Origin: a bacterium
Lineage (GTDB): Bacteria; JAHJDO01
Direction: 5' to 3'
Assembly (NCBI GenBank): GCA_030652805.1
Contig: JAUSPT010000024.1
Location: forward strand, 37,050 to 101,049
Length of the DNA stretch: 64,000 nt
Part shown: positions 21,473-44,716 of the stretch, piece by piece
How the letters are laid out: every line of letters starts with the position of its first letter
Numbering within the stretch: position 1 is the first letter of the stretch
Made by a program: the position numbers and the translations under genes
The notes under the pieces: generated by a model
Databases searched by the model: none
What the model saw: only the letters and a program-made list of their open reading frames with translations
Told to the model about the DNA's origin: nothing

Positions 21473-22159
21473 ATGGCTAAGAGAACAATCTTAGTAGTTG
21501 ATGATGATCCTAATATCATTCAAGCGGTCTCTTTTGTTTTAAAAAAGGAAGGATATATAGTTACTACAGCTGTTGATGGAAAAGAAGCATTTAAAAAAGC
21601 TAAAGAAGAATTACCTCACCTAATTATTCTTGATGTTATGTTACCGAAACTGAGTGGATTTGAGGTCTGTAAACGATTAAAAGCTAATACTCAAACCAGA
21701 AAAATTCGTACTATTATGTTGACTGCTAGGAGTGAAGAAAAGGATAAAAGGTTGGGTGAGAAGTTAGGTGTGAATGCTTATATTACTAAACCTTATAATA
21801 TTGATGAGGTTCTATTTACAGTAAAGAGAGCTATAGAGAAAAAAGAATTACAGAGATCAATTGAAAAAATGAAAAAAGCAGCCTTGGTGGGGTATATGGG
21901 AGAGGCGATGTCTCATGAGATATTTAATCCTTTATCTGTTGTTTCTGGCTCCGTCCAACTTTTAATGAGCAGGATTAAAAAAGGCAAAAAGCTAACTACA
22001 AAAGAATATGAAGATTTCTTTAAAAATATTACTAAAAATGTAGAAAGGTGCATAGAGATTATAAATATTTTTAGGAAATTTTATGCATCTATAGGCATTG
22101 AGATTAAGCCTAGAAATTTAGAAGAAACGTTAAGGGATATATTGGAAGGCAAGATATGA
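21473..22159 (+). CDS. Response regulator receiver fused to an orphan HisKA-like dimerisation domain
   Basis: A 228-residue protein. Residues 5-120 are a receiver domain with phosphoacceptor Asp54 (ILDVMLPK) and the Lys of TKPYN. From about 130 there is a coiled linker and a HisKA-like helix pair with His148 in SHEIFNPLSVV. It stops there: no ATPase domain follows. Its stop overlaps the start of the next gene, a complete PAS-HisKA-HATPase kinase. It may dimerise with or be phosphorylated by that kinase, or be a phosphotransfer intermediate. Alternatively the two could be a kinase split by mutation, but the second gene has its own HisKA, so that is unlikely. Confidence 0.8.
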   Translation: MAKRTILVVDDDPNIIQAVSFVLKKEGYIVTTAVDGKEAFKKAKEELPHLIILDVMLPKLSGFEVCKRLKANTQTRKIRTIMLTARSEEKDKRLGEKLGVNAYITKPYNIDEVLFTVKRAIEKKELQRSIEKMKKAALVGYMGEAMSHEIFNPLSVVSGSVQLLMSRIKKGKKLTTKEYEDFFKNITKNVERCIEIINIFRKFYASIGIEIKPRNLEETLRDILEGKI

Positions 22160-23229
22160 TTATGAGTAAAGAGTTTAGCAGAGCTCTGTTTGAGTACAAT
22201 CCTATTGAAACCGTAGTCGTGGATTTGGAAGGAAGAATAATCGACTTTAATCTGGCAAAAAAGAACTCAGGGGATAGATTGCCCAATATTGGGGATGGGA
22301 TGTACAAGGATTATGCAGCTCATCATGAGATTGACATGTATGCTGAATTGATAAAATGTATCAGAACAAGTAAGGTAAAAAAGTTTCCTGAGAAAAAATA
22401 TAAAAAGAGGTTTCTATCCATAACAATAGCTCCCTTTCCCAAAGGGGCAATTATAACATCTCTAGATGTCACCGAGCACAAGAAAGAGACAGAAATAGAG
22501 AGGAAAAGAGCTACAGAGGCGAAAAAGGATTATGAACAACTACAAGCCAATAAGGACGATTTGATTCGCTCCGAGAAACTTGCCTTTACCGGCCGCATAG
22601 CCGCAAATATTGCTCATGAGATAAGAAATCCCCTGACCAATGTAGCTATGGCAGTCCAGCAGCTTGGGAAAACCATTAAACAGGAAGGACACATTGCTAA
22701 ACATATGGACATCATTAAAAGAAACACAGAAAGGATTAACTATTTAATTACTGAACTCCTAAATTGTGCCCGCCCGCCAAAACTTAATATACAGCCATGT
22801 AATATTCATAAGGTATTAGAAGATATTTTAGAGTCCAACAAGACTAAGATTAGTTCAAAAAATATAAAGATAATTAAAAGGTTTACCTCTGACACATTCA
22901 TAATAAAGATTGATAAAGAACAAATGCAGCGTGCCTTCTTAAACATAGTCATCAATGCTATTGAAGCTATGCCCAAGAGAGGCAAATTGACCATTATTAC
23001 AGAGTTTAAGGGAAATCTTTTTGAGGTGAAGGTTCAAGATACAGGTAAAGGCATTCCTGAAGAAGATATTATCAGGATATTTGACCCTTTCTTTAGTTCC
23101 AAGTCCGGGGGTGTAGGCTTAGGATTGACTATATGTTATGGGATTATTGTGAGCCATGGCGGTACTATAGAGGTAGAAAGCAAGCCGAAAGAAGGGTCTA
23201 TCTTTATGGTATCTTTGCCAATTGGGTAA
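22156..23229 (+). CDS. PAS sensor histidine kinase (NtrB-like)
   Basis: A 357-residue soluble kinase. Residues 10-110 form a short PAS-like domain, then a coiled linker. The phosphoacceptor is His154 in AHEIRNPLTN, and the HATPase domain has NIVINAIEAMPKRG, DTGKGIPEED and GVGLGLTICYGI. The HEIRNPL box and short architecture are typical of NtrB/AtoS-type kinases that pair with sigma-54 activators such as the one encoded at 24060. The start codon ATG at 22156 overlaps the previous stop; an in-frame ATG two codons later is equally possible. Confidence 0.88.
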   Translation: MIMSKEFSRALFEYNPIETVVVDLEGRIIDFNLAKKNSGDRLPNIGDGMYKDYAAHHEIDMYAELIKCIRTSKVKKFPEKKYKKRFLSITIAPFPKGAIITSLDVTEHKKETEIERKRATEAKKDYEQLQANKDDLIRSEKLAFTGRIAANIAHEIRNPLTNVAMAVQQLGKTIKQEGHIAKHMDIIKRNTERINYLITELLNCARPPKLNIQPCNIHKVLEDILESNKTKISSKNIKIIKRFTSDTFIIKIDKEQMQRAFLNIVINAIEAMPKRGKLTIITEFKGNLFEVKVQDTGKGIPEEDIIRIFDPFFSSKSGGVGLGLTICYGIIVSHGGTIEVESKPKEGSIFMVSLPIG

Positions 23230-23325
23230 AGATCAAAAGTTAGAAAAAGTAAAATTTTGAGATAAAAAAGGCACAAAGTGACAAAGGCGCAAAAGATGCT
23301 CGTTTACATAACGGAGAGTGAATAT

Positions 23326-23398
23326 AAACTCACCCTGACCCTCTCTTGAGTAGAGAGGGAATGTTCCCCTTCTCTGTCAAGAGAAGGGGCGAGGGGAT
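23326..23398. repeat. Dispersed intergenic repeat: two tandem hairpins
   Basis: Within the gap between two signalling genes, CCCTCTC pairs with GAGAGGG around 23338-23359, and CCCCTTCTCT-GTCA-AGAGAAGGGG (23366-23389) forms a perfect 10-bp stem. The first unit (23326-23360) reappears in inverted orientation at 60720-60753 with one small difference, so this is a dispersed REP-like element. The rest of the gap (23230-23325) shows nothing else. Confidence 0.75.
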
Positions 23399-23439
23399 GA
23401 GTTGAGTTCACTAAATATTTACGACGACGGAGTGTAATA

Positions 23440-24048
23440 GTGGAAATAAAATATGATATTAGAAGAGGCGCAGATATATATCGGGCAATTTATGGAGCTC
23501 GATTACAGAAATGGATTCTTGCAGGTAAGATAAAGCGAGGAGAAGTAATTGTCTGGCGAAGCGGTCTTTCAGGCTGGCGCAAAGCCGAAGAACTTGAAGA
23601 ACTGGCGCCATTTTTTGAACAGTGGGAAAAAGAACAATTAAGAGAAACAAAGAGGCAAAAAGAGCAAGTCTTCTTAAGGAAGAAACAGAAGAAGATAAAG
23701 AATATTTTGATAATAGACGATGAGAAGGATTTGTGTTCGCTCCTGTCTGACGCCTTAATCCAGAGAAACTACAATGTATCGATTGCAAACACAAAAAGAG
23801 AAGCTATGGCTTATCTTAAAAAGAAATCACCTGATTTAGTTCTGTTAGACCTAAAACTACCTGATGGCGATGGAATAAAAATCCTTCCTAGGATCAAAAG
23901 GGTAAATCCAGAGACAGTAGTGATTGTAATTTCTGCCTATGGAAGCGAAGAAAGCAGACAAATGGCAAAAAAGGGAGGAGCTTTTACCTTTATAAACAAG
24001 CCGTTTACTGAAGAAGATATATTAAGGAGTATAAAAGTACTCTCATAA
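23440..24048 (+). CDS. Response regulator with N-terminal GYF-like domain
   Basis: A 202-residue protein. Residues 1-62 look like a GYF_2-type domain: YDIRRGADIYR, then GEVIVWRSGLSGWRKAEEL and a closing Phe/Trp pair. Such domains bind peptides. A short basic linker leads to a receiver domain (about 85-202) with Asp137 in LLDLKLPDG and the Lys of NKPF. No output domain follows. GTG at 23440 is the probable start, with GGAG upstream. It lies 11 bases before the NtrC-type gene and may be an adaptor or a phosphate sink in that system. Confidence 0.8.
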   Translation: MEIKYDIRRGADIYRAIYGARLQKWILAGKIKRGEVIVWRSGLSGWRKAEELEELAPFFEQWEKEQLRETKRQKEQVFLRKKQKKIKNILIIDDEKDLCSLLSDALIQRNYNVSIANTKREAMAYLKKKSPDLVLLDLKLPDGDGIKILPRIKRVNPETVVIVISAYGSEESRQMAKKGGAFTFINKPFTEEDILRSIKVLS

Positions 24049-24059
24049 CAGAGGGCAGC

Positions 24060-25439
24060 ATGGAGACGATTCTAATAGTAGATGATGAGAAGGACTTGCG
24101 TTTTAATCTTTCCAACATTTTGAAGGACGAAGGTTACAACGCAATCGCTGTGGGAGACGGAAGGAAAGCGCTTAATGCAGTTAAGAAAAATTCTCCCAAT
24201 TTGGTCCTGCTGGATATGAAGCTTCCTGAAATGGATGGGATGCAGATTCTAGAGAAGATGAAGCTGATTGATAAGGATTTGATTATTATAATGCTTACTG
24301 CTTATGGAAATCTAAATGGAGCGGTAAAAGCAATGAAATTAGGGGCATTTGACTATCTTGCCAAGCCTTTTGATAATGAAGAATTAATTCTTGTAATAAA
24401 AAGGGCTCTTCGGACCCAATATTTAGCCAAGGAAGTAGAAACTCTAAAAAAACGGGTTGGTGAAAAAATTACAGCAGAAGAGCTAATGGGAGAAAGCCCT
24501 CAAATAAAGCAAGTCTTAAAACAGATTAAGATAATTGCTCCGACCAATATGACTGTAATACTTCAAGGTGAAAGCGGAACAGGCAAGGAATTGATTGCTC
24601 AGATGATCCATCAGGAAAGTCCGCGAAAAAATGACCCTTTTATTGCTATAGACTGTGGCGCAATTCCCGATACATTGGCTGAGAGTGAACTCTTTGGTCA
24701 TGAGAAAGGCGCCTTTACAGGAGCTGATGCTCAAAAAGAAGGCAGGTTTGAAGAGGCTAATGGAGGAACTCTGTTTCTGGATGAGATTACAAATCTCTCT
24801 TCTACTACGCAGAGAAAACTTCTCAGAGTGATACAGGAAAGAAGGCTTCAGCATATAGGCGGCAAGAGAAGTATAAAAGTTGACGTCAGAATAATCGTGG
24901 CTACGAACATTAATCTCTCAGGCGCGGTAAGGCGGGGTAAATTTAGAGAGGACCTCTTCCATAGGTTAAATGAATTTCATATTTCACTTCCCCCGCTTCG
25001 GGAAAGAAAAGATGACATCCCCCATTTAGCCATGCGTTTTTTGGGGGGAGGAAATCAGGAATTAAATAAAAAAATAGAAGGGTTTTCTTCTGATGTAATG
25101 AAATTGCTTCTGGATTATCCCTGGCCGGGCAATGTTAGAGAATTAAAGAATGTAGTCAGAAAAGCAGTGCTTCTGTGCGATTCCAATCATATCAAACCGG
25201 AACACTTTCCATTAGATAATATTGCTTCCACTAAAAAGCTTGAATTTCAGCAGGATTTGGATAAAGGAGTCTCCCTCAAAGAGATAACTAAAAAAGCGAC
25301 AGGACAGATAGAAAAGGAAGCTATTGAGCAAGCACTGGCAAAAGCCGGCGGCAATAAAAGTAAAACCGCCAAAATCCTCAAAATAGACCGCATGACCCTC
25401 TATTCTAAGATGAAGGAATATCAGATACGTAGACTGTAA
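24060..25439 (+). CDS. NtrC-family sigma-54-dependent response regulator, likely activator of the gas vesicle island
   Basis: A 459-residue regulator with all three domains: receiver (Asp52 in LLDMKLPEMDG), AAA+ sigma-54 interaction domain with Walker A GESGTGKE at 170-177 and the sigma-54-contacting GAFTGA loop at 217-222, and a C-terminal Fis-type helix-turn-helix (GGNKSKTAKILKIDRMTLYSK). The intact GAFTGA means it should drive open complex formation. Only about 260 bases after its stop lies a textbook sigma-54 promoter preceded by palindromes, in front of gvpA. By analogy, GvrA, an NtrC-family protein, is required for gas vesicles in Serratia sp. 39006. The target assignment is inference from position. 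Confidence 0.92.
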   Translation: METILIVDDEKDLRFNLSNILKDEGYNAIAVGDGRKALNAVKKNSPNLVLLDMKLPEMDGMQILEKMKLIDKDLIIIMLTAYGNLNGAVKAMKLGAFDYLAKPFDNEELILVIKRALRTQYLAKEVETLKKRVGEKITAEELMGESPQIKQVLKQIKIIAPTNMTVILQGESGTGKELIAQMIHQESPRKNDPFIAIDCGAIPDTLAESELFGHEKGAFTGADAQKEGRFEEANGGTLFLDEITNLSSTTQRKLLRVIQERRLQHIGGKRSIKVDVRIIVATNINLSGAVRRGKFREDLFHRLNEFHISLPPLRERKDDIPHLAMRFLGGGNQELNKKIEGFSSDVMKLLLDYPWPGNVRELKNVVRKAVLLCDSNHIKPEHFPLDNIASTKKLEFQQDLDKGVSLKEITKKATGQIEKEAIEQALAKAGGNKSKTAKILKIDRMTLYSKMKEYQIRRL

Positions 25440-25700: not shown

Positions 25701-25717
25701 TTGGCACGGAATTTGCT
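25701..25717 (+). promoter_or_regulatory. Sigma-54 (RpoN) promoter of the gas vesicle island
   Basis: TTGGCACG-GAAT-TTGCT matches the sigma-54 consensus TTGGCACG-N4-TTGCW at every defined position, with the -24 GG at 25703-25704 and the -12 GC at 25715-25716. Transcription should start near 25728, about 100 bases before gvpA. It is the only such site I noticed in the window. Confidence 0.88.
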
Positions 25718-25813: not shown

Positions 25814-25830
25814 GAGGGGAGGTGGAAAAA

Positions 25831-26037
25831 ATGGCAGTAGAAAAAGCAATCGGTTCATCTAGTTTGGTTGAGGTTATTGACAGAATCCTTGACAAGGGTG
25901 TTGTGGTTGATGCATGGGTTAGAATTTCTTTAGTTGGTATTGAATTACTCGCTATTGAAGCAAGAGTCGTAGTCGCATCAGTCGAGACATACCTGAAGTA
26001 TGCTGAAGCAATTGGTCTAACCGCAACAGCAGCTTAA
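25831..26037 (+). CDS. gvpA: Gas vesicle major structural protein GvpA
   Basis: A 68-residue protein with the canonical GvpA core: [20 protein letters not shown], then [33 protein letters not shown]. This is the hydrophobic helix-beta-beta-helix subunit that forms the ribs of the gas-filled shell. Length is typical. ATG at 25831 follows GGGGAGG; an in-frame GTG at 25822 overlaps that site and is rejected. It is the first gene after the sigma-54 promoter and is followed by a hairpin that could let it be made in excess over the downstream genes. Three further GvpA-family proteins are encoded at 30832, 38960 and 41728. Confidence 0.97.
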
Positions 26038-28043: not shown

Positions 28044-28364
28044 ATGAGCGAGATAAAATGTGCTTTCTGCAAAGGCACGGGCAAGGATCCATTTGATCTT
28101 CTATCCGAGCTTGCTGTCTGCCAGGTTTGCGGAGGCAGGGGTAAAGTTGAGGTAAAAGAGCCGGCAATCAAGTGTGTCTTTTGTAGCAGCACCGGTATCT
28201 ATCCTCGTAGTCGAGTTACCTGCACTGTATGTAATGGCAAAGGAATGGTTGCGGTTAAAGGCGCGACTGACGAGTGCCCTAAGTGCAAAGGCACAGGCAG
28301 AGCAATAGATAGCGGACTTCCCTGCATTAAATGTGGAGGCAAAGGGGTCGTTTCAAAAAAATGA
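28044..28364 (+). CDS. Stand-alone DnaJ-type zinc finger protein (six CXXCXGXG motifs), copy 1
   Basis: A 106-residue protein made almost only of cysteine motifs: CAFCKGTG, CQVCGGRG, CVFCSSTG, CTVCNGKG, CPKCKGTG and CIKCGGKG. DnaJ itself has four such motifs binding two zincs; this has six, enough for three. There is no J domain. Stand-alone DnaJ zinc fingers such as plant BSD2 act as specific assembly chaperones, so a role in holding unassembled Gvp proteins is plausible. Two paralogues are at 30149 and 31667. Its TGA overlaps the ATG of the next gene. Confidence 0.85.
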   Translation: MSEIKCAFCKGTGKDPFDLLSELAVCQVCGGRGKVEVKEPAIKCVFCSSTGIYPRSRVTCTVCNGKGMVAVKGATDECPKCKGTGRAIDSGLPCIKCGGKGVVSKK

Positions 28365-30127: not shown

Positions 30128-30148
30128 CAACTGCATAGGTGGTTGAGA

Positions 30149-30541
30149 ATGAATTGGAACACATTTGACTTTAAAAGCGGGAAAAGCGGAAGAACCAGGT
30201 CAGGACGAAGGATAGGTGAGATTTTGGAAGGGGATAAGTTTAGATGTTCATTATGCAGAGGCACAGGGATATTACCCCGAACCAAGGGCACAAGATGTCA
30301 TGTATGTAAAGGCTCAGGCATAGTTTCCTTAACCGGACCGGCAGTAGTATGCGCTTACTGCAAAGGCAGAGGCGATTATCCGCCGAGGACAAGTCTTACC
30401 TGTACGGTTTGCGGAGGGAAGGGTTTAGTTAGCATTACCAAACCCATTGAAATATGCGAACATTGCCGGGGAACCGGTGCTGAGCCGGGCAATAAACTAC
30501 CTTGCTTAAAATGCAAAGGTAAGGGTGTGATTACAAAATAG
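30149..30541 (+). CDS. Stand-alone DnaJ-type zinc finger protein (six CXXCXGXG motifs), copy 2
   Basis: A 130-residue paralogue of the protein at 28044. A 30-residue N-terminus (MNWNTFDFKSGKSG...RRIGEIL) precedes six motifs: CSLCRGTG, CHVCKGSG, CAYCKGRG, CTVCGGKG, CEHCRGTG and CLKCKGKG. The N-terminal WNTF..RRIGEIL segment is shared with copy 3 at 31667 (WQTMEWN...RRGEIL) but absent from copy 1. ATG at 30149 follows GGTGG and is preferred to an in-frame TTG at 30143. gvpO follows. Confidence 0.83.
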   Translation: MNWNTFDFKSGKSGRTRSGRRIGEILEGDKFRCSLCRGTGILPRTKGTRCHVCKGSGIVSLTGPAVVCAYCKGRGDYPPRTSLTCTVCGGKGLVSITKPIEICEHCRGTGAEPGNKLPCLKCKGKGVITK

Positions 30542-31666: not shown

Positions 31667-32053
31667 ATGAGCTGGCAAACAATGGAGTGGAATAAACAAA
31701 AGATCGGGCGCAGAGGAGAGATTTTAACCAGGGATGTCTACAGATGCGGTTTTTGTAGAGGCACAGGTCTCCTTTCTTCTAAAAAGGGGATAAAATGTCC
31801 TGTTTGTTTAGGTAATGGAGAGGCAAAGGTTTCATCTCCGGCTGTAATTTGCGCTTATTGCAATGGAACGGGAAAAAGACATCCTCGAACTACCCTCACC
31901 TGTACTGTTTGCCGAGGAAAGGGTGTTGTGAGCGTGGGAACTTCTGATATTGAAGCTTGTCCTACTTGCAAAGGAATAGGCAGGGAACGCGGCAGGACTC
32001 TTCCCTGTTTAACCTGCAAAGGGACAGGCGTTATTCCTAAAAAGAAGAGATAA
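31667..32053 (+). CDS. Stand-alone DnaJ-type zinc finger protein (six CXXCXGXG motifs), copy 3
   Basis: A 128-residue paralogue of the proteins at 28044 and 30149. After a WQTMEWN...RRGEIL N-terminus come CGFCRGTG, CPVCLGNG, CAYCNGTG, CTVCRGKG, CPTCKGIG and CLTCKGTG. ATG at 31667 follows AGGAGG. An Hsp20-type gene follows after 32 bases, an association of two chaperone types in one operon. Confidence 0.83.
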   Translation: MSWQTMEWNKQKIGRRGEILTRDVYRCGFCRGTGLLSSKKGIKCPVCLGNGEAKVSSPAVICAYCNGTGKRHPRTTLTCTVCRGKGVVSVGTSDIEACPTCKGIGRERGRTLPCLTCKGTGVIPKKKR

Positions 32054-32085
32054 TATTTTAGTATTAAATGTACAGGGAGAAAAAA

Positions 32086-32604
32086 ATGGCTAAAGAAAAG
32101 AAAAAAAATGAAGAAGCGGTAGGTTTTGATTTTGGCATTGGTGGGCTGTTTAAAGGTATTGAGAAATTAGTTGACCTGGCAGCAGATTTAAAAGAGGCCG
32201 GAGGGGAGATTAAGAAAGAAGGCGAAATAGACCTGAGCCATCTTAAGAAAGGGATGAAGGGAGTATTTGGATTTTCTGTAAAAAGCGCGGTGGGAGGAAA
32301 ACCAACAGTTGAGACATTCGGCCACAAAATTAAGAAGACCCCTGAAGGTCCCACGGTTGAAGAAGAGAGAGAGCCTATCATAGATGTATTTGATGAAAAA
32401 GAAGAGATCCGAGTCTATGCTGAGATGCCGGGGGTAAATGACGAGTCTATATCGGTTGATTTAAAAGGGGATATATTAGAAATAACAGCTGTAAGTAAGG
32501 ATAGAAAATACCGCAAGGAAATTTTGCTTCCTGCTAAAGTTGAATCTAAAACTTTAGAGAGGAGTTTTAAAAACGGTATCTTAGAAATAAAAATAAAGAA
32601 ATGA
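32086..32604 (+). CDS. Hsp20-family protein of the gas vesicle island (GvpH-like), copy 1
   Basis: A 172-residue protein. The last 85 residues are an Hsp20/alpha-crystallin domain (PIIDVFDEKEEIRVYAEMPGV start, LERSFKNGILEIKIKK end). The N-terminal half is charged and specific to this locus (GGLFKGIEKLVDLAADLKEAGG, then a Gly/Lys-rich linker). GvpH proteins of other gas vesicle clusters have the same domain. The ATG at 32086 follows GGGAG; the ATG at 32068 is in frame but lacks a binding site. The Get3-type gene starts four bases later. Confidence 0.8.
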   Translation: MAKEKKKNEEAVGFDFGIGGLFKGIEKLVDLAADLKEAGGEIKKEGEIDLSHLKKGMKGVFGFSVKSAVGGKPTVETFGHKIKKTPEGPTVEEEREPIIDVFDEKEEIRVYAEMPGVNDESISVDLKGDILEITAVSKDRKYRKEILLPAKVESKTLERSFKNGILEIKIKK

Positions 32605-32607
32605 TAT

Positions 32608-33543
32608 ATGGCATTAACAGGATTAAGAGAAGATGCGTTAAAACTGGTTTTATTTGGAGGGAAGGGCGGCGTAGGAAAGACAACCTGTGCATCAAGCACA
32701 GGCTTTTATTTAGCAAAGAATTTCAGGACATTGCTTTTTTCAACAGACCCGGCACATTCGCTCTCTGATAGTTTAGAGCAGGACATTGGCAGTAACATAA
32801 TAGAGGTGAAAGGGACAAAAAACTTGAGTGCTTTTGAAGTAAGCGCAGAAAAAGCTCTTTCTAGATTCAAGATAGAACATGAAGACCAGATAAAAAAGAT
32901 TTTGGATACCTCTACCTATTTAGATGAGGAAGACATTGATTCCATCTTTGATTTGCCTATTCCCGGGATGGATGAAGTGATGGGGTTCAAGACAATTGTT
33001 GATTTAATAGAGGAAGCTAAGTTTGACAAGTACATTGTAGATACCGCGCCTAGCGGTCATGCGATGAGACTTCTGACTTTACCTGACCTGCTGGATGACT
33101 GGGTCAAGGTTATGGCAAAGATGAGATGGAAGTATAGATATATGGTGGAAAGATTTGGCGGAAGATATAATCCTGACGAAGGCGATGATTTCTTATTAAC
33201 TATGAAAAAGACCGTAAAGAGAATAGAAAATCTTCTTAAGGATCAAAAAAGGTGTGAATTTATAGCAGTTACCATTCCGGAAGATATGGCAATTTTAGAA
33301 ACCGGGAGAATGATAAATAATTTGAACGACTATGGCATAAAAGTGAGGCAATTAGTAATAAATAATGTTGTAGAATCGCAGGATTGCGGATTTTGTAGAG
33401 AAAGAAGAAAAGGGCAGGAGAAACATATAAACAGGATAATGAAAAAGTTTGATGACTTAAAAATAACAATTGTCCCTTTGCAATCAAGGGAGGTTAAAGG
33501 TATAGATACCTTGAATAATTTTAAAGAGATGCTATTTCAATAA
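32608..33543 (+). CDS. Get3/ArsA-family ATPase
   Basis: A 311-residue P-loop ATPase with the deviant Walker [10 protein letters not shown] at 17-25 and the Get3/ArsA signature [12 protein letters not shown]. The A-motif [17 protein letters not shown] follows, and a CxxC-like pair sits at DCGFCRERR. Only one nucleotide domain is present, as in eukaryotic and archaeal Get3 rather than E. coli ArsA. No arsenic genes are nearby. Get3 shields hydrophobic helices, so a role in handling hydrophobic GvpA or tail segments is plausible. Its stop overlaps the ATG of the CDC48-like gene. Confidence 0.85.
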
Positions 33544-35711
33544 TGGGAAAAAAGAACTCAGCTCTTACACTTAAAGTAAAAGAAGCTCTGCCAAAGGATG
33601 CAGGAAGGGCTATCGCCAGGATTGACCCGGAAGATATGAAAACTCTTGGAATAGAAGTGGGCGAGGTTGTAGAGATTGACGGTAAAAGAAAAACTCCTGT
33701 CAAAGCAATGCCATCTTACGTAGAAGATAGAGGGAAAAAGACTATTCAAATGGATGGAATATCCAGAGAGAATGCGCAGATTGGACTGGATGAAAAGGTA
33801 AAGATCAGCAAGATTGACTATAAGTCTGCTAACAAAATCACACTCTCGCCTCTAACTGCATCAAGTCTGCTTCAAAGAGATAAAGATACCAGATATATCG
33901 GGTCGCTTATGGAGGGGCTTCCTGTAACCAGCGGCGATAGGATTAGAGCTACGCTTTTTGGCTCAAGATCCTGCGATTTTAAGGTGCTGGATACTATTCC
34001 TGCGGGTGTAGTTTTAATAAACCAGACTACTTCAATAAAGATGAAGACAAAGGGAGCAGAAAAAGAGAGGTCAGCCAAAGTTTCATATGAAGATATTGGC
34101 GGGCTTGATAAGCCAATCCAAAGAATCAGGGAGATGATAGAGCTTCCTTTAAAATATCCTCAAGTATTTGAAAGATTAGGAATTGATCCGCCGAAAGGCG
34201 TTTTTCTCCATGGTCCTCCGGGTTGTGGAAAAACCTTAATCGCTCGGGCCGTGGCTAATGAAACAGATGCTTATTTTACCAGCATAAGCGGACCGGAAAT
34301 TATGGGGAAGTTTTATGGGGAGAGCGAAGCTCGCCTCCGTTCCATATTTGAAGATGCTCAGGCACATGCGCCTGCTATCATATTTTTGGATGAGATTGAA
34401 TCTATTGCTCCAAAAAGAGAAGATATGGGCGCTGAAAAACAGGTTGAGCGAAGAGTAGTAGCTCAGCTTCTGGCTCTGATGGATGGATTAGAATCAAGGG
34501 GACATGTTGTTGTTATAGCTGCAACCAATTTGCCTAATACAGTTGATCCGGCTTTGAGACGGCCAGGCCGTTTTGACAGAGAATTATCTATCCCTATTCC
34601 GGATAAAAATGGGCGATTAGAAATTTTACAGATACATACAAGAGGAATGCCTTTGGCAGAAGATGTGAGTTTAGAGAGATTAGCTGAGATTACTCATGGA
34701 TTTGTGGGCGCGGATTTAGAATCATTAGCAAGAGAAGCAGCAATGTCAGCGTTAAGAAAGATTTTGCCTAAGATAGATTTTGAATTAGCGGAGATACCTT
34801 ATGAGACTCTTTTAGAATTGCAGGTTACTATGGACAATTTTTTGGAGGCATTGAAAGAAATAGAGCCTTCTGCTATCCGCGAGGTATTTGTTGAGATTCC
34901 TGATGTCCGGTGGGATGAGGTTGGTGGATTAGATGAAATAAAGAAGTCTTTAATTGAAGCCGTGGAATGGCCTCTTAAATACAGCAGATTATTTGAGCAC
35001 GTCAAAACAGAGCCGCCTACAGGCATTTTGCTCTCCGGTTCTCCGGGTACGGGAAAGACTTTGGTAGCCAAAGCATTAGCTACTGAGAGCGGGGTTAATT
35101 TTATTTCTGTTAAAGGCCCTGAGATTATAAGTAAGTATGTGGGTGAGTCAGAACGCGCTGTCCGTGAGATATTTAAAAAGGCAAGAATGGCTGCTCCATG
35201 TATTTTATTCCTGGATGAAATAGACAGTCTGGTTCCTACACGCGGAAGCGCTGGAGGGGATTCACAGGTAACCGAGAGAGTGATCAGCCAATTTCTTACC
35301 GAACTTGGAGGGATAGAGAGATTAAAGGGCGTAGTAGTGATTGGTGCGACCAATAGATTAGATATGATAGACACCGCAGTATCAAGGGCGGGAAGGTTTG
35401 ATATCCATTTAAACTTTCCATTACCTGATAAAAAGACAAGACTCAGAATTTTTGAAATTCATGCTAAAGACAAACCATTAGATAAAGATGTAAATTTAGA
35501 AAAATTAGCAGATCAAATAGAAGAATATTCCGGAGCAGATATTGAAGCTGTTTGCCGTCGCGCGTCTATGCTTGCTATAAGAGGATATATAGAAAATCAA
35601 AAGGCAAAAAGCAAAGATCAAAAATTAGAACTCAAGATATCAAAGAGCAATTTTGAAGAAGCTATTAGTTTACTAAAAGAACAGAAGAACGAAATAAAGG
35701 GGGGTGGTTAA
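33543..35711 (+). CDS. CDC48/p97-like double AAA+ ATPase
   Basis: A 722-residue protein with the full CDC48 layout: a double-psi-barrel N domain (1-85, [17 protein letters not shown]), a CDC48 domain 2-like region (about 95-170), D1 with Walker A GPPGCGKT at 224-231 and IIFLDEIES, and D2 with GSPGTGKT at 499-506 and ILFLDEIDS. The second-region arginine fingers and a C-terminal helical part are also present. Such unfoldases remodel complexes. Type is best known from archaea and eukaryotes, so an ancient transfer is likely. Translation is coupled to the Get3-type gene (TAATG). Here it probably remodels Gvp assemblies. Confidence 0.9.
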
Positions 35712-35712
35712 A

Positions 35713-35847
35713 ATGGCAGGGATTATTGAGAAAATTAAAAACTTTTTTAGCAGCATGTGTATATGCAAAGTTAAGAAGGAAAAAGAAGAACCTAAACTGC
35801 AACAGGAAGAGCCTAAGGTAGAGGAAAAACCTGAAGAACAAAAATAA
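35713..35847 (+). CDS. Tiny amphipathic protein with Lys/Glu tail
   Basis: A 44-residue reading frame between the CDC48-like gene and a gvpF/L gene. GGGGTGG at 35700-35706 is a good binding site. Residues 1-20 (MAGIIEKIKNFFSSMCICKV) would form an amphipathic helix with a CxC pair; residues 21-44 are a charged Lys/Glu/Gln tail. It could attach to a membrane or to the shell surface. Not recognised; coding status rests on spacing, binding site and composition. Confidence 0.5.
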   Translation: MAGIIEKIKNFFSSMCICKVKKEKEEPKLQQEEPKVEEKPEEQK

Positions 35848-35862
35848 TAAACAAGGTGTAAA

Positions 35863-36867
35863 ATGGCTGAAATTGGAAAATATATTTATGGAATTATAAG
35901 TTCTAATACGAACTTCCGCCTTTTTATCTCGGAGGATAGCATACATGCGATTCCTTATCAGGATATCTCGGCTGTAGTAGGAGACTCTGAGATAATCGAT
36001 TACACCTGTATATCTAAAGGTGATGTGGCGAAAATGCTGGTCAGGCATCAAAAGGTTATTGAAGGCGTTATGAGTTCAGGGCTTACAATTATTCCTATGA
36101 AATTAGGTACATTCGCTGTTTCGGAAATTGAGGTCAAAGATATTTTGGATAGAGGATATAACCTCATTAAGGAGATTATGGAGAAGACGGGCGATAAAAT
36201 AGAGATTGATATAGTCGCCACATGGAGTGATTTTCCTTCAATTCTTAAAGAGGTTGGGGAAGAGAGAGAAATTAAAGAATTCAAAGAAAGGCTTTTAGCT
36301 AGTCCAAAAGAGATAACCATAACTGAGCAAATGAAAGTAGGGCTTATGGTTAAGAAAGCATTGGATACAAGAAAAGAAAAATATGCTGAAAAGATAAAGA
36401 ATGCACTGGAAACTCTAAGCCAGGATCTAAAGTTGCATGAACTCATGGACGATAATATGGTTGCTAATATAGCCTTTTTGATAAATAAAACCCGGCAAAT
36501 AGAATTTGATAAAAAGATAGAAGACCTAAACACTGAATTTCACGATGAGTTAAATTTTAGATGTATAGGTCCGCTTCCGCCTTATAGTTTCTATACGCTT
36601 GAGATAAAAAAGATGAAATTTGACGAGATTGATTGGGCAAAAAAGAAGTTGAGGTTAAATGATTTTGCAGGTAAAGATGAAATTAAGAAAGCTTATCGAA
36701 GAGTAGCCGCCTCTTCCCATCCTGATAGAAATCCGGATATACCGGCTAAAATTTTTGATGATGTAAACAAAGCTAATAAGATACTTATTGATTATTGCAA
36801 AGCTCGTGAACAAGCAGGCGAGGAAGAATTTGAAAAGAACGCAATATTGATCAAAGTGAGGGAGTAA
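35863..36867 (+). CDS. GvpF/GvpL-family protein fused to a C-terminal J domain
   Basis: A 334-residue protein. Residues 4-253 are a GvpF/L domain: GKYIYGII start, HQKVIEGVMSSGLTIIPMKLGT, and the closing FRCIGPLPPYSFYTLEI. From about 255 on comes a J domain (NDFAGKDEIKKAYRRVAASSHPDRNPD) with the catalytic His286-Pro287-Asp288 intact, which should stimulate an Hsp70 ATPase. GvpF/L proteins contact GvpA during nucleation, so this fusion could recruit DnaK to new subunits. No dnaK is in the window. It is the first of three consecutive gvpF/L genes. Confidence 0.88.
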   Translation: MAEIGKYIYGIISSNTNFRLFISEDSIHAIPYQDISAVVGDSEIIDYTCISKGDVAKMLVRHQKVIEGVMSSGLTIIPMKLGTFAVSEIEVKDILDRGYNLIKEIMEKTGDKIEIDIVATWSDFPSILKEVGEEREIKEFKERLLASPKEITITEQMKVGLMVKKALDTRKEKYAEKIKNALETLSQDLKLHELMDDNMVANIAFLINKTRQIEFDKKIEDLNTEFHDELNFRCIGPLPPYSFYTLEIKKMKFDEIDWAKKKLRLNDFAGKDEIKKAYRRVAASSHPDRNPDIPAKIFDDVNKANKILIDYCKAREQAGEEEFEKNAILIKVRE

Positions 36868-36874
36868 TAGGAAT

Positions 36875-37645
36875 ATGGAGAAAGAAGGTAAATATATCTA
36901 TTGTATTATCGCAACATCGCAGGAGAGGAACTTTGGGTCAATAGGAATAGGTGGCAGGGGCGATGAGGTATTAACCATTGGCTATAATGATCTGAGCATG
37001 GTTGTAAGCAGTCATCCAATGACTAAATTTACTGTTAATCGCGAGAATATGCTGGCTCATGAGAAGGTAATTGAAGAAGTGATGAAGGAATTTGATAGTG
37101 TTCTTCCAGTCAGATTTGGCACAGTTGCCTCTAATGCCGATGAGATAAGAAATCTTCTGGATAAAAGATATAGAGAATTTAAGGACTCATTAAGAAATAT
37201 GGATCATAAAATAGAATTAGGGGTTAAAGGGATATGGAAGAATATGGATATCATCTTCAAGGAGATTTCAGAAGAGAACAGAGAGATTAAGAAGGCAAAA
37301 GTGAAAATTCAAAACGGCAAAGGGAAAAAGAATATACAATCTAAGATGGAGGTTGGTAAAGAGGTTTTTGAAGCTCTGCAAAAGAAAAAAGAGAAAGAGG
37401 CAGAGAAGATAGTAGATGCCTTAAGAAGAACATCCTTTGACCATAAACTTAATGAGACTATTACTGATGAGATGTTTATGAATGCAGCCTTTTTGGTGGA
37501 TAAAGGGAGAGAGAAAGAATTTGATAACATAATGGGTGATTTAAGTGAAGAATATAAGGATAGAGTAAAGTTTATGTATGTAGGTCCTTTACCTGTTTTT
37601 AATTTTGTGAGCATTGCAATTTATCCTGAAGAATGGGAGAAATAA
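36875..37645 (+). CDS. Gas vesicle protein GvpF/GvpL, copy 2
   Basis: A 256-residue GvpF/L-family protein. It begins GKYIYCIIATS, has the AHEKVIEEVM and VLPVRFGTVA motifs near residues 55-80, and closes with FMYVGPLPVFNFVSI. The Lys/Glu-rich middle (about 140-175) is coiled coil. GvpF and GvpL are two-domain cytoplasmic proteins that bind GvpA and are thought to start assembly. No J domain. Separated by one base from copy 3; the two resemble each other more than either resembles the J-domain copy. Confidence 0.9.
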   Translation: MEKEGKYIYCIIATSQERNFGSIGIGGRGDEVLTIGYNDLSMVVSSHPMTKFTVNRENMLAHEKVIEEVMKEFDSVLPVRFGTVASNADEIRNLLDKRYREFKDSLRNMDHKIELGVKGIWKNMDIIFKEISEENREIKKAKVKIQNGKGKKNIQSKMEVGKEVFEALQKKKEKEAEKIVDALRRTSFDHKLNETITDEMFMNAAFLVDKGREKEFDNIMGDLSEEYKDRVKFMYVGPLPVFNFVSIAIYPEEWEK

Positions 37646-37646
37646 G

Positions 37647-38414
37647 ATGGAAACGGCTGTAAAACGAGGTAAATATATATATTGCGTAATTGAGTCAAAT
37701 CAAGCCCAATCATTCGGTTCGCCGGGAGTTGGCGGAAGAGGGGACGAATTGCATACTATTTGCTTTAACGATATAGCAGTTGTAGTGAGCAATTCTCCAA
37801 TAATAAAATACCCGGTATCAAGGGAGAATACACTTGCTCATGAAAAGGCAATTGAGGAAGTGATGGAAAAATATGTAGTTTTGCCGGTAAGATTTTGTAC
37901 AATTGCTGAAGACGAGAAGAAGGTAAAAAAGATTTTAGAAAGAGAGCATGATAAATTCAAAGATTTGTTGGATGAGATCAAAGGGAAAAAAGAGCTCGGA
38001 TTAAAAGCAATATTTAAAGAGGATGTTATTTATAAAGATATCCTGGAAAAACATGAAGGCATAAGAAAGTTAAAAGAAGGGCTGGCTTCTAAACCCCCTG
38101 AAGCGACCCATTACGAACGTATGGAAATAGGAAAAATGGTGGAAACTGCTCTACAAAAAGAAAAAGAGATTTGTGAAAAGGAAATTATTAATGCTCTTTT
38201 GCCTTTGGCAGTAGAGCATAAGACGAATAATACCTATGGTGAACGAATGATTATTAATGCGGCTTTTTTAGTGGAGAAAAGCAAAGAAACAGAATTTGAT
38301 CAGAAGGTTCAGGAACTTGACGGAAAATATGGTAATAAAATAAAATTTAAATATGTGGGCACATTACCGCCATTTAATTTTGTCAATTTAGTAATTAATA
38401 TAGGAGAGTATTAA
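37647..38414 (+). CDS. Gas vesicle protein GvpF/GvpL, copy 3
   Basis: A 255-residue GvpF/L-family protein: RGKYIYCVIES start, GSPGVGGRGDELHTI, AHEKAIEEVM, VVLPVRFCTIA, and end FKYVGTLPPFNFVNLV. The ATG at 37647, just after the TAA of copy 2 and behind GGGAG, is the start; an in-frame reading into copy 2 is rejected. Its TAA overlaps the ATG of gvpG, so F/L and G are translationally coupled, matching their known co-requirement. Confidence 0.9.
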   Translation: METAVKRGKYIYCVIESNQAQSFGSPGVGGRGDELHTICFNDIAVVVSNSPIIKYPVSRENTLAHEKAIEEVMEKYVVLPVRFCTIAEDEKKVKKILEREHDKFKDLLDEIKGKKELGLKAIFKEDVIYKDILEKHEGIRKLKEGLASKPPEATHYERMEIGKMVETALQKEKEICEKEIINALLPLAVEHKTNNTYGERMIINAAFLVEKSKETEFDQKVQELDGKYGNKIKFKYVGTLPPFNFVNLVINIGEY

Positions 38415-40954: not shown

Positions 40955-41719
40955 ATGAATGAAGCAAGATATCTTTATTGTATAGCCGATGGAAATAAAA
41001 AGATAACATTTGGCAATATTGGAATAGAGGATAGCGAAGTCTACACTATCCCTTATGAAGATTTATGCGCTGTAGTTCATAATTGTCCTTCAGAGCCCTA
41101 CAAATCAGAGGATAATGAAGTGGTGAAAAAATGGGTAACGGCTCACCAGAAGGTTGTTGATACTGTCTGGGGAAAATTTGGCACTGTCTTACCATTGGGT
41201 TTTGATACCATAATTAAAGGCGAGAAGGGGACTACCCCGGATAAGAATATGAAGAATTGGATTAAAGAAGATTACAAAAATTTAAAAGAAAAGATAGCTA
41301 AGCTTAAAGGCAAGGCTGAGTATGGGGTTCAGATTTCCTGGGACCCTAAGGTGATTGGAGAAAAGTTAATAGAAAGTAATCAAGAGATTAAGAAATTAAA
41401 TGAGGAGATAAAATCCAAATCCAAGGGTCTTGCTTATATGTATAAACAGAAACTGGAGAATCTCTTGAAGAAAGAGATGGAAGTGGAGGCGGAAAGGCAT
41501 TTTAAAGATTTTTACGAGAAAATTAAAAAATGTGCGAATGAAATTAAAGTAGAAAAGACTAAAAAACTTGAAGAAGGAAAACAAATGCTGATAAACCTTT
41601 CTTGTCTTTTACCCAAAGAAAAAAGCAAGGTATTAGGCGAGGAGTTAGAAAAGATTAACGATATGGAAGAATTCTACGTTCGCTTCACTGGTCCCTGGCC
41701 GCCATATAGTTTTGTATAG
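40955..41719 (+). CDS. Gas vesicle protein GvpF/GvpL, copy 4
   Basis: A 254-residue GvpF/L-family protein: EARYLYCIADGN start, a VYTIPYEDLCAVVHN strand, AHQKVVDTVWGKFGTVLPLGFDTI, a long coiled middle (130-215) and the end VRFTGPWPPYSFV. It is more divergent from copies 2 and 3 and lacks their R-F-G-T motif in full (L-G-F-D-T here). It lies between gvpK and a GvpA-family fusion gene, suggesting a separate partner. Confidence 0.9.
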   Translation: MNEARYLYCIADGNKKITFGNIGIEDSEVYTIPYEDLCAVVHNCPSEPYKSEDNEVVKKWVTAHQKVVDTVWGKFGTVLPLGFDTIIKGEKGTTPDKNMKNWIKEDYKNLKEKIAKLKGKAEYGVQISWDPKVIGEKLIESNQEIKKLNEEIKSKSKGLAYMYKQKLENLLKKEMEVEAERHFKDFYEKIKKCANEIKVEKTKKLEEGKQMLINLSCLLPKEKSKVLGEELEKINDMEEFYVRFTGPWPPYSFV

Positions 41720-41727
41720 GATAAAAA

Positions 41728-42834
41728 ATGGAACCGACCCGCAATGTTCAGGCAACTTTGGTTGATTTATTGGATAGGATACTGGATAAGGGGCTGGTAA
41801 TCAACGCCGATATTATCATCTCTGTGGCTGGTATTCCTTTAATCGGCGTTAATTTGAGAGCGGCGTTAGCAGGAATGGAGACTATGCTTAAATACGGGGT
41901 GATGCAGTCCTGGGATGAGAAGAGCAGGGCATGGGAGAGGGAACATCAGAAGAAGGCTCTTCCTTCTCTGGTTGAAGGGGAGAAGATCGCCCTGAAAATA
42001 TATGGTTCTTATTATTATAGTAAAGGAATATATAATGCCTGGAAACCAGGCTATTTTTATTTAACTAATAAAAGGCTTATTCTTCACCGTCAGGATTTTG
42101 ATGAAATCACCTTTCAGATACCATTAGAAAAAATAAAAGCATTAATAGTGAAAGAGGAAGAGCATTTTGTTAAAGAAAAGAAAAAACAGGTGCTTTATCT
42201 TATGGATAGACAGGATCAAGCGCATCGGCTTAGCGCAGTAGAGGCAAACCAATTAAAAGAGGCTATTGAACAAAGAATAAAGGATATGGGACTTTGTCTG
42301 GAAGAAAATCCTGTTCTTCCAGAGTTTGTGGATGAGCGAATTGCAGGTTCGCTGATGGAAGAAGAAAAGGTTAGTCATCAAGGGAAGAAAGTGTGGTATT
42401 TAGTGCCGCCTGAAGGAATTCAACAAGAGACCTGGAGACCGGGTCATCTCTATCTTACCAATAAAAGATTATTTTGGTGGTATGATTTTGATAAAAGAAT
42501 AGTTTTTGATGTTTCTGTTGATAAAATAGTTGGCGTTAATGCCGAGATGAGAAAAACAAGCGGTCTTGATAGTAAGAAAGAGAAAATCCTTGATATACTA
42601 TACGGGGTTAATTCAACAAAAAGAACAGCTTCTTTTGCCGGAAAGGAAATAGATGAATGGGCGGAAGCGCTAAACAGGATTGTTCCCGGCAAGATAAATG
42701 AGGAAATCGAAACCTGCCCCCAGTGCGGCAGGCCCGCCCCGGCCAAAGAATTATTAGAAGAGAGTTGCCAGAGCTGTGGCTGGGTCAGCCCTAGATTAAA
42801 AAAGAAGATAGCTCAAGCGGCTTTATCAGCATGA
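41728..42834 (+). CDS. GvpA-family protein fused to two GRAM/PH-like domains and a zinc ribbon
   Basis: A 368-residue protein of unusual design. Residues 10-60 are a GvpA core (LVDLLDRILDKGLVINADI, GVNLRAALAGMETMLKYGV). Two GRAM/PH-like domains follow (about 80-190 and 205-320), each with the hallmark strand GYFYLTNKRLILH or GHLYLTNKRLFWW. The end has a zinc ribbon with Cys330, Cys333, Cys347 and Cys350. GRAM domains bind lipids or proteins, so this could tie the shell tip to a membrane or to the assembly machinery. Its TGA overlaps the start of another double-GRAM protein. Confidence 0.85.
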   Translation: MEPTRNVQATLVDLLDRILDKGLVINADIIISVAGIPLIGVNLRAALAGMETMLKYGVMQSWDEKSRAWEREHQKKALPSLVEGEKIALKIYGSYYYSKGIYNAWKPGYFYLTNKRLILHRQDFDEITFQIPLEKIKALIVKEEEHFVKEKKKQVLYLMDRQDQAHRLSAVEANQLKEAIEQRIKDMGLCLEENPVLPEFVDERIAGSLMEEEKVSHQGKKVWYLVPPEGIQQETWRPGHLYLTNKRLFWWYDFDKRIVFDVSVDKIVGVNAEMRKTSGLDSKKEKILDILYGVNSTKRTASFAGKEIDEWAEALNRIVPGKINEEIETCPQCGRPAPAKELLEESCQSCGWVSPRLKKKIAQAALSA

Positions 42835-44039
42835 GAAGTTATTTAGATACTATAAGAAAACCGGTTAATTTACCTTTGCTTCAGGGCGAAGAAGTGCTTA
42901 AGTATTTTACGGCGAGCTACGATGTTGGGAGTTCACTTGCCTCATCCTGGAGACTGGGAAATTTATATCTTACCAATAAGAGACTGCTTTTTGTCCAGGG
43001 AAGAAAGATACTATTTGAGGGCCTGCTCAGCCAAATAAAGACTATAAATATAGTAAAGAGAAGATGGATTTTGGGTAAGAAAGTAAAACAACTAAGTATA
43101 GTATCTGAAGGCAGGAGAGCGCCATATATTGCCATAAAAGACCCTGAAGAATGGAAAAAAGCAATCCTTTCTGATCCACAGTCCCCAGTCCATAACTCGC
43201 AACCTGATGAAGTAATTTTAAAAGGAAGGGGTGGTTATTTAACTCCCGGTCAATCAAAGTGGAGGCTTGGCACTCTTCTCCTTACCAATAAAAAACTCGC
43301 ATTTTCCCAGTTGAGGGGAATTGTATGGGAGACGCCACTCAGCAGTATTAAGGGTTTAAGAATAGAAAAAAGAGTTTACGGGGTCAGTAAAAGTGATGCG
43401 ATATGTGTGGAATATGAATCTTTGGGTGAATTATTAAAAGCATGGATTATATCGCTTAATTTAGAGACTTGGAGAAAAGAGCTATATGAGAGAGTATTAC
43501 TAAAAGTAGATCGGGAGACATTAGATAAAATTGTTACCGAATTGGATCCAGGTTCAAAAGGGATACTCTGGTTTCTTTATGAGAACCGACACGCAAGAAT
43601 CGATATCTTAGCCAAGCTCATAAAGTCTCCTACCCATATGGATGTTTTACTTAAAATAAGGGAGATTATAAACCCAACAGCTGAAAAGCTCATCGGCTAT
43701 CCTATACTCTCATTCGAGAGTTCAAAAGTTGACTGGGAAACTGGCGAGAAAGTTACGTTTAGCTGGTGGCTCGCTGGTCAGCCTTATAGAGAGAAAATGG
43801 AGCCGCTTCTGGACATATTTGATGAGGATGCTGAGCTGGTAGTCTATTTAGAGATGGTAGGTATTAAAGAAGATAAGTTATGCTTAAGTGTGGTGAATAA
43901 CAAACTTATTATTGATGCAGATAAAAATTATCATAAAGAAATTTCTCTTCCCGCAGTGGTTAATACAAATAGTTTTACCAAGAGGTATAAAAATAATATA
44001 TTGGAAGTAAGGTTAAAAAAGGGAAAGTGTAACAGGTGA
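42831..44039 (+). CDS. Double GRAM/PH-like, winged-helix-like and Hsp20 fusion protein
   Basis: A 402-residue protein. Two GRAM/PH-like domains (1-110 and 115-215) carry WRLGNLYLTNKRLLF and WRLGTLLLTNKKLAF strands. Residues 220-300 look like a winged helix (LDPGSKGILWFLYENRHARIDILAKLI). The last 80 residues are an Hsp20/p23-like domain (LLDIFDEDAELVVYLEMVGI start, YKNNILEVRLKKG end), clearly related to the two Hsp20 proteins of this island. ATGA overlap with the preceding GvpA-GRAM gene indicates coupling. A membrane- or shell-linked chaperone is a reasonable guess; no precedent known to me. Confidence 0.78.
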   Translation: MRSYLDTIRKPVNLPLLQGEEVLKYFTASYDVGSSLASSWRLGNLYLTNKRLLFVQGRKILFEGLLSQIKTINIVKRRWILGKKVKQLSIVSEGRRAPYIAIKDPEEWKKAILSDPQSPVHNSQPDEVILKGRGGYLTPGQSKWRLGTLLLTNKKLAFSQLRGIVWETPLSSIKGLRIEKRVYGVSKSDAICVEYESLGELLKAWIISLNLETWRKELYERVLLKVDRETLDKIVTELDPGSKGILWFLYENRHARIDILAKLIKSPTHMDVLLKIREIINPTAEKLIGYPILSFESSKVDWETGEKVTFSWWLAGQPYREKMEPLLDIFDEDAELVVYLEMVGIKEDKLCLSVVNNKLIIDADKNYHKEISLPAVVNTNSFTKRYKNNILEVRLKKGKCNR

Positions 44040-44716
44040 GAAAACTTATTTATGTGCCGATTATACATATGAGCGCTGACTTAGGCAGTGTTGCCAAGCA
44101 GGTAAATAAAAGAGGTATTGCAGATTTTGGAGAGGAATTCTGGAAGAAACACAGAGAGACTGTGTCCGGCTTTTGGGATTCGATTGTAAAATATTTTGCC
44201 AATTTAGAGGTTAAAGATTTTAAGATATACCAGGATGGCTTGGTAGCTGATGGAGAAGTTGGCCAAAAAATAGTGGAGGAAGGCGTTAAATCCGGCAGTA
44301 AAAATTATGAAGTTATCGATGATTTATTGAAGAAAGGGGGGATTTTAGTCCAGACAGAGGATTTCCCTCTGGTTAAAGAAGAAAGAGATCGTATTGTTAA
44401 AATTACCCAGGCTAAGACGATAACAACGAAGTTAATAGCATATTTAGGATATAGATTGACTAAGGATTGGTTACTAAGGAAAAGAGATAATTATATAGCT
44501 AAGAGGATAGATGAAACTTTAGAACATGGCGGAGAAAAGGGCATCCTCTTTTTAGGTGCATACCACAACATAATACCTGAACTCTCTAAAAAAATTCAGA
44601 TAACTGAGGTAAAGGAAGCAAAAAAAGTAAGGGATTATCAAAGATTGCTTCTCTCATTTAGAAAGAATAAAGAAGAATTTGAAGAGTTAGCAAGATATTT
44701 AATCTCACCAATATAA
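44036..44716 (+). CDS. Conserved protein at the end of the gas vesicle island, function unknown
   Basis: A 226-residue soluble protein. The GTG start at 44036 overlaps the previous stop, so it belongs to the operon. The first strand LIYVPIIHMSADLGS and the late segment GILFLGAYHNIIPEL are spaced like the two histidine motifs of TraB/Tiki-type proteins (GxxH and GAGH), but the match is weak and I do not assign it. A basic region (KDWLLRKRDNYIAKR) lies between. Last gene before an inverted repeat. Confidence 0.6.
   Translation: MRKLIYVPIIHMSADLGSVAKQVNKRGIADFGEEFWKKHRETVSGFWDSIVKYFANLEVKDFKIYQDGLVADGEVGQKIVEEGVKSGSKNYEVIDDLLKKGGILVQTEDFPLVKEERDRIVKITQAKTITTKLIAYLGYRLTKDWLLRKRDNYIAKRIDETLEHGGEKGILFLGAYHNIIPELSKKIQITEVKEAKKVRDYQRLLLSFRKNKEEFEELARYLISPI

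Follow-up and report, generated by a model that had tools for sequence, protein, structure and literature searches.

The gene at positions 35,863-36,867 (+) of the window, i.e. the whole 64,000-nucleotide stretch of DNA analysed here, touches the question of how the very hydrophobic shell protein GvpA stays soluble and enters the growing wall of the gas vesicle, a step in which GvpF has been cast as a chaperone only in recent work. The gene is a single open reading frame with an ATG start, whose 334-amino-acid product joins a GvpF/L domain to a J domain, and the locus raises the question of whether, and in what way, such a protein might bring Hsp70 into the assembly of gas vesicles.

Both parts of the protein are well defined. 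Residues 5-244 match Pfam PF06386 (GvpL_GvpF) with 170.5 bits against a cut-off of 23.6 (E 8.3e-50), over profile positions 1-244 of 245, so that the whole domain is covered, and residues 263-313 match the DnaJ domain PF00226 with 40.4 bits against a cut-off of 27.8 (E 3.2e-10). The fusion proposed in the initial annotation is thus confirmed by two matches well above chance, as is, in the translation, its placing of the HPD motif at residues 286-288 (36,718-36,726, +). A chance match, a frame error or an assembly artefact can be ruled out, since both domains score above their cut-offs and 24 other genomes carry the fusion as well. In a sequence search of the PDB, the N-terminal part returned the GvpF crystal structures 4qsg and 6l5d, and the C-terminal part many J domains, including that of E. 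coli DnaJ bound to DnaK (5nro_B); J domains were also returned when the J part was used alone. Helix II of the fusion is basic, like that of DnaK-binding J domains (EIKKAYRR, compared with EIRKAYKR in E. coli).

In an AlphaFold2 model of the full-length protein, computed from an alignment of ten sequences from the window and from relatives (mean pLDDT 82), residues 1-245 match GvpF 6l5d (6l5d_B) with a Z of 21.7 and an rmsd of 2.8 over 236 residues, and GvpF 4qsg with a Z of 20.8. These GvpF proteins, from Anabaena (6l5d) and Microcystis (4qsg), have the fold of the N-terminal 244 residues of the fusion and also its gvp context, but they are about 250 amino acids long, end after the GvpF/L domain and lack a J domain. 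The domain had initially been taken to end near residue 253; its identity holds, while its boundary is better placed at about residue 244 (residues 1-244, 35,863-36,594, +, from the Pfam and model matches), and a short flexible linker follows (residues 245-253, 36,595-36,621, +), with pLDDT below 50 at 249-252. Similarly, the J region, first drawn at 255-334, is borne out for about residues 254-313 (36,622-36,801, +), which the model, the Foldseek and Z matches and Pfam PF00226 predict to be a J domain, whereas residues 314-334 (36,802-36,864, +) are a poorly predicted, family-specific tail and not a canonical J helix IV; the last 14 residues are of low confidence in the model.

Within the modelled J domain, helix I spans residues 254-262 and helix II residues 271-285, followed by the HPD loop and by helix III from residue 295, so that HPD sits between helices II and III, as membership of the J-domain family requires. 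Foldseek returned dozens of J-domain matches for this part, among them 5nro_B, the DnaJ J domain with DnaK (TM-score 0.71 by target length); the length of the query keeps the individual E-values modest (0.02 to 0.3), and it is the Pfam result that carries the assignment. The top Z for the J part (9.3) was obtained with Tim16 (2guz_B). Tim16 is a J-like protein without HPD, and the J fold by itself is therefore no proof of Hsp70 function. Folding of the isolated J region with no alignment as input yielded a weak model (mean pLDDT 66), and the full-length model was used instead.

On its predicted domain content the protein is a class-C type J protein and not a DnaJ: Pfam finds GvpF/L and J only, with no G/F region, zinc finger or CTD of the kind that marks class A. 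With DnaJ and class-C J proteins it has in common the J fold, the HPD, a basic helix II and an Hsp70 in the genome; unlike in DnaJ, the J domain is C-terminal and the GvpF/L domain would serve as the client module.

The fusion gene is part of a run of about 30 genes that share a strand and for the most part lie a few bases apart. The run contains gvpA, two genes for GvpC-like coiled-coil proteins, gvpN, a gvpO-like gene, gvpJ/M-type genes, gvpG, gvpK and gvpL, together with two Hsp20 genes and genes for an ArsA-type ATPase and a CDC48-like AAA+ ATPase. The protein is therefore encoded, as expected of the GvpF/L family, alongside gvpA, gvpN, gvpG, gvpK and gvpL. The major shell protein gene gvpA, whose product is the likely client, is located at 25,822-26,037 (+; Pfam Gas_vesicle, E 2.2e-16). 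Nearer to the fusion are genes for an Hsp20/GvpH small heat-shock protein (32,068-32,604, +; Pfam HSP20, E 1.3e-7), an ArsA/Get3-type ATPase (32,608-33,543, +; Pfam ArsA_ATPase, E 4.6e-79) and, directly upstream, the CDC48-like ATPase (33,543-35,711, +; Pfam CDC48_N, CDC48_2 and two AAA domains), an order of CDC48-like gene and fusion that is kept in most relatives. Two plain GvpF/L paralogues follow (36,875-37,645, +, without a J domain, PF06386 E 1.2e-62; 37,647-38,414, +, PF06386 E 5.4e-68), and the GvpL encoded at 40,955-41,719 (+; NCBIfam gas_vesic_GvpL, E 1.7e-58) likewise lacks a J domain. In the ORFs scanned, which came from every gvp locus whether or not it has the fusion, no J domain other than that of the fusion was found.

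Several other features of this run deserve mention. Between the CDC48-like gene and the fusion there is a small ORF (35,704-35,847, +) of 47 amino acids, or 44 from an inner ATG, with an amphipathic start, an acidic proline-rich end and no Pfam match; similar ORFs occupy the equivalent place in two related loci (L053 and L048) and perhaps in a third (L046). An exact sigma-54 promoter consensus, TGGCACGGAATTTGCT, is present at 25,702-25,717 (+), 104 bases upstream of the gvpA start; it is the sole zero-mismatch site in the window, where about 0.03 would be expected by base composition, and genes for an NtrC-type regulator and two-component proteins lie just upstream of it (21,473-25,439). Given the exact consensus before gvpA and the NtrC-type regulator, transcription of the gvp run probably depends on sigma-54. 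Beyond gvpL, the gene at 41,728-42,834 combines a GvpA/GvpM-type domain with bacterial PH/GRAM-like and zinc-ribbon parts, and the next one (42,831-44,039) combines weak GRAM/PH-like and Hsp20-like parts; both genes occur a second time, together with another gvpL, on contig 6 of the genome. The run closes with the gene for a 226-amino-acid protein (44,036-44,716, +) that has no match in Pfam or NCBIfam, although many gas-vesicle clusters encode a relative of it (L053, L049, L087, L089, L092, L095 and L096). In two relatives a Volactin-type actin-like protein, identified by Pfam, is encoded between gvpF/L genes (L046:12523-13569, E 3.5e-98; L048:9241-10284; 81% identical to each other); none was seen in the window.

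The fusion is widespread. Since the query was the fusion itself, the proportions of fused proteins are biased upward: in a sample of 385 genomes, mostly of different families, GvpF/L matches to the window protein (E <= 1e-9) occurred in 21, 15 of them with the fusion (the window's own genome counted); in the phylum of G135 the fusion was present in all five genomes with matches, out of 46, and in the phylum of G228 in at least five of the 24 with matches, out of 95. Two more fusions were identified, on a metagenome-assembled contig labelled Bacteroidetes (L046) and on plasmid pOA238_160 of Octadecabacter arcticus 238, and altogether 25 genomes, from many families and bacterial lineages, carry it. 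The Octadecabacter protein (WP_015497776.1), annotated only as GvpL/GvpF family, is 27% identical to the window protein and has the same GvpF/L-J architecture with HPD; it is encoded in a complete gvp cluster that has no CDC48. This bacterium has been cultured, and its gas vesicles are known (PMC3646047). Plasmid-borne GvpF/L proteins of haloarchaea, actinomycetes and Nostoc match the fusion over the GvpF/L part only, and a search for phage or viral relatives found none.

In every one of the 25 fusions the HPD is intact. An alignment of 17 J regions (89 columns) is highly diverged, the commonest residue having a mean frequency of 0.53 per column, and H, P and D are its sole invariant columns; the motif is also present in eight further relatives. 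For the two members of the genus in which the cluster is present, dN/dS comes to 0.23 in the J core, 0.26 in the GvpF/L part and 0.32 when the tail is taken together with the J domain; these values are rough, since substitutions are few. The fusion is under purifying selection, and a degenerate J domain is ruled out by the universal HPD and by dN/dS values of about 0.2-0.3. The conservation on which the initial annotation had made its proposal depend is thus found in 24 other genomes, always with HPD, and this recurrence of a fusion with an intact motif indicates that Hsp70 probably takes part in building gas vesicles.

How the fusion arose was addressed with a maximum-likelihood tree of 67 GvpF/L domains (16 fused and 51 plain), from which the J part was left out. 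All 16 fused domains fall on one side of a single branch and the 51 plain ones on the opposite side (SH-aLRT 87, a support that is not starred, in a tree with long branches for L051, L065 and L096). Because the fused domains group apart from the plain ones, the simplest reading is that the fusion is ancient and of single origin and represents a distinct GvpF/L paralogue kept ever since; independent recent fusions are not favoured, as the fused domains group together. The fusion in G455 (L146; G455:C241:3260-4183) stands outside this tree and its GvpF/L domain ends in the manner of the plain paralogues (PCYNFVNL), so that it may be the product of a second, independent J fusion.

The J domain itself probably derives from a family of small stand-alone J proteins and not from DnaJ, judging by profile scores and common flanking motifs rather than by a J-domain tree. 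Outside the fusions, a profile of the fused J domains gave its best matches with stand-alone J proteins of 95-123 amino acids, at 59-91 bits (most of them 80 or more), compared with 37-64 bits against full-length DnaJ and CbpA-type proteins. One such protein, of about 105 amino acids, is encoded in the same genome amid non-gvp genes on contig 84 (G000:C84:3926-4234), and small stand-alone relatives also occur in genus members without GvpF/L hits (G001, G003 and G004). This protein is unfused, unlike the GvpF/L-J protein, but it has in common with most fusions an F.eID.AR..LGL start and a YC..YSF.EE tail; the tail pattern YC...SF..E recurs in most relatives of the fusion. A derivation from the genome's own DnaJ is not favoured, the fused domain being closer to the small stand-alone proteins.

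A potential partner for the J domain is generally available. The genome itself encodes one full DnaK beside a full DnaJ (G000:C55), and a full-length Hsp70 was detected in 14 of the 15 fused genomes tested, the sole case without one being G178, which is 91% complete. One relative, G090, has two DnaK genes. The usual copy is on contig 256; the other, also full-length, is on contig 302 (L050:7140-8984; Pfam HSP70, E 3e-210) and sits in the same orientation in a gvp cluster, with a gvpA-type gene (itself after gvpL) on one side and an Hsp20 gene on the other. DnaK was seen in a gvp cluster in this relative only. This second DnaK keeps RIINEPT, the stretch of E. coli DnaK that faces the HPD. In G090 the fusion is encoded on contig 168, whose sequence ends within a following gvpF gene, and contigs 168 and 302 may well be parts of one cluster.

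In class-C J proteins the non-J part picks the client and the J part switches on Hsp70. We consider it likely that the fusion is a dedicated co-chaperone of this class in gas-vesicle biogenesis, which holds shell subunits and brings in DnaK. The GvpF/L domain would be the client-binding part, holding the hydrophobic subunits of the shell (GvpA, or the minor relatives GvpJ/M) during their synthesis; the C-terminal J domain would use helix II and the HPD loop to dock on DnaK and would trigger ATP hydrolysis there; DnaK would then clamp the subunit, preventing its aggregation, and would finally release it, either to the shell under construction or to the accessory protein that acts next, for instance GvpG. 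When proteins of Bacillus megaterium were produced in E. coli, GvpF proved to be the primary partner of GvpA2 and was proposed to be its chaperone, displaced by GvpG, and earlier haloarchaeal work had also found GvpF bound to GvpA; GvpF proteins other than the fusion are thus known to bind GvpA, and also to be required for gas vesicles (PMC11445434). If the fused paralogue also binds shell subunits, its J domain would bring DnaK to the subunit; the suggestion of the initial annotation that DnaK is placed where GvpF/L meets GvpA fits this published binding (PMC11445434), with the recruitment of Hsp70 as the inferred step. Against the co-chaperone reading, the GvpF/L proteins of the well-studied systems of Halobacterium, cyanobacteria and actinomycetes have no J domain, and Hsp70 tethering is therefore not generally required.

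Loading of shell subunits is our first choice. The main rival is a role in taking complexes apart, in which DnaK would remove GvpF/L or other accessory proteins from the nucleation complex, or would aid the CDC48-like ATPase in remodelling or clearing failed or collapsed vesicles. Auxilin and other class-C J proteins act by such disassembly, the fusion directly follows the CDC48-like AAA+ gene in most clusters, and Hsp20, ArsA and GvpN ATPases are also encoded in the run. However, no CDC48 is found beside the fusion on the Octadecabacter plasmid or in G052, while CDC48 is present in clusters without the fusion (L099 and L101); as each occurs without the other, the two are not strictly linked. 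The published GvpF-GvpA data, moreover, indicate an early binding of the shell protein (PMC11445434), and we regard disassembly as rather improbable.

Less probable still is that the J fold serves only as a structural or protein-protein interaction module, independent of Hsp70, like Tim16-like J-like domains. The structural rank of Tim16 and the apparent lack of a full-length Hsp70 in G178 would agree with it, but the specific retention of HPD, in J regions that otherwise diverge so far, is not what would be expected of a purely structural module. It is also conceivable that the J domain is mainly a sensor, through which stress, by titrating DnaK away, would halt vesicle assembly; an operon that is probably signal-driven, with its sigma-54 site and NtrC-type regulator, could accommodate an extra, post-translational brake, but the same data are explained by simple co-chaperone action and we consider a sensor very unlikely.

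The co-chaperone reading can be extended, although only tentatively. Three separate DnaJ-type zinc-finger proteins are encoded in the run (30,143-30,541, +, a stand-alone protein with six CXXCXGXG repeats; 28,044-28,364; and 31,667-32,053), with Pfam DnaJ_CXXCXGXG E-values of 3.6e-13, 2.7e-11 and 4.7e-12; they contain six, six and five repeats and almost nothing else, and relatives occur in several other loci (L045, L046, L053, L091, L092 and L096). Because of these proteins, here and in several relatives, one may speculate that DnaJ has been taken apart, and that gvp clusters form a dedicated Hsp70 machine for the loading of shell subunits, with the J domain placed on GvpF/L, the zinc fingers separate, Hsp20 and CDC48 added and, in G090, a private DnaK; we view this as doubtful.

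The initial annotation knew of no characterised gas vesicle protein of this design. NCBI and Pfam models exist for each domain separately, and a GvpF/L-J fusion was described in none of the open papers searched, which is weak evidence, as most subscription papers lie outside that search; the only co-mention of gas vesicles and the J domain in this open literature, a maize heat-shock-protein survey, is unrelated to the fusion. The Octadecabacter genome paper lists the gvp genes without mention of DnaJ (PMC3646047), and DnaJ is likewise unmentioned in a study of Serratia gas vesicles (PMC4982088). On the basis of this search, a GvpF/L protein that doubles as a J-domain protein seems to be a new form of a known type.

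A conserved GvpF/L paralogue with an intact Hsp70-docking domain leads to a definite prediction, namely that DnaK takes part in assembly. Work on the fusion is practical, since it is widespread and occurs in a cultured bacterium, and the protein may aid the engineering of gas vesicles in heterologous hosts, in which the limits are set by assembly and aggregation. If the prediction is true, the assembly of gas vesicles would be tied to the main ATP-driven chaperone of the cell.
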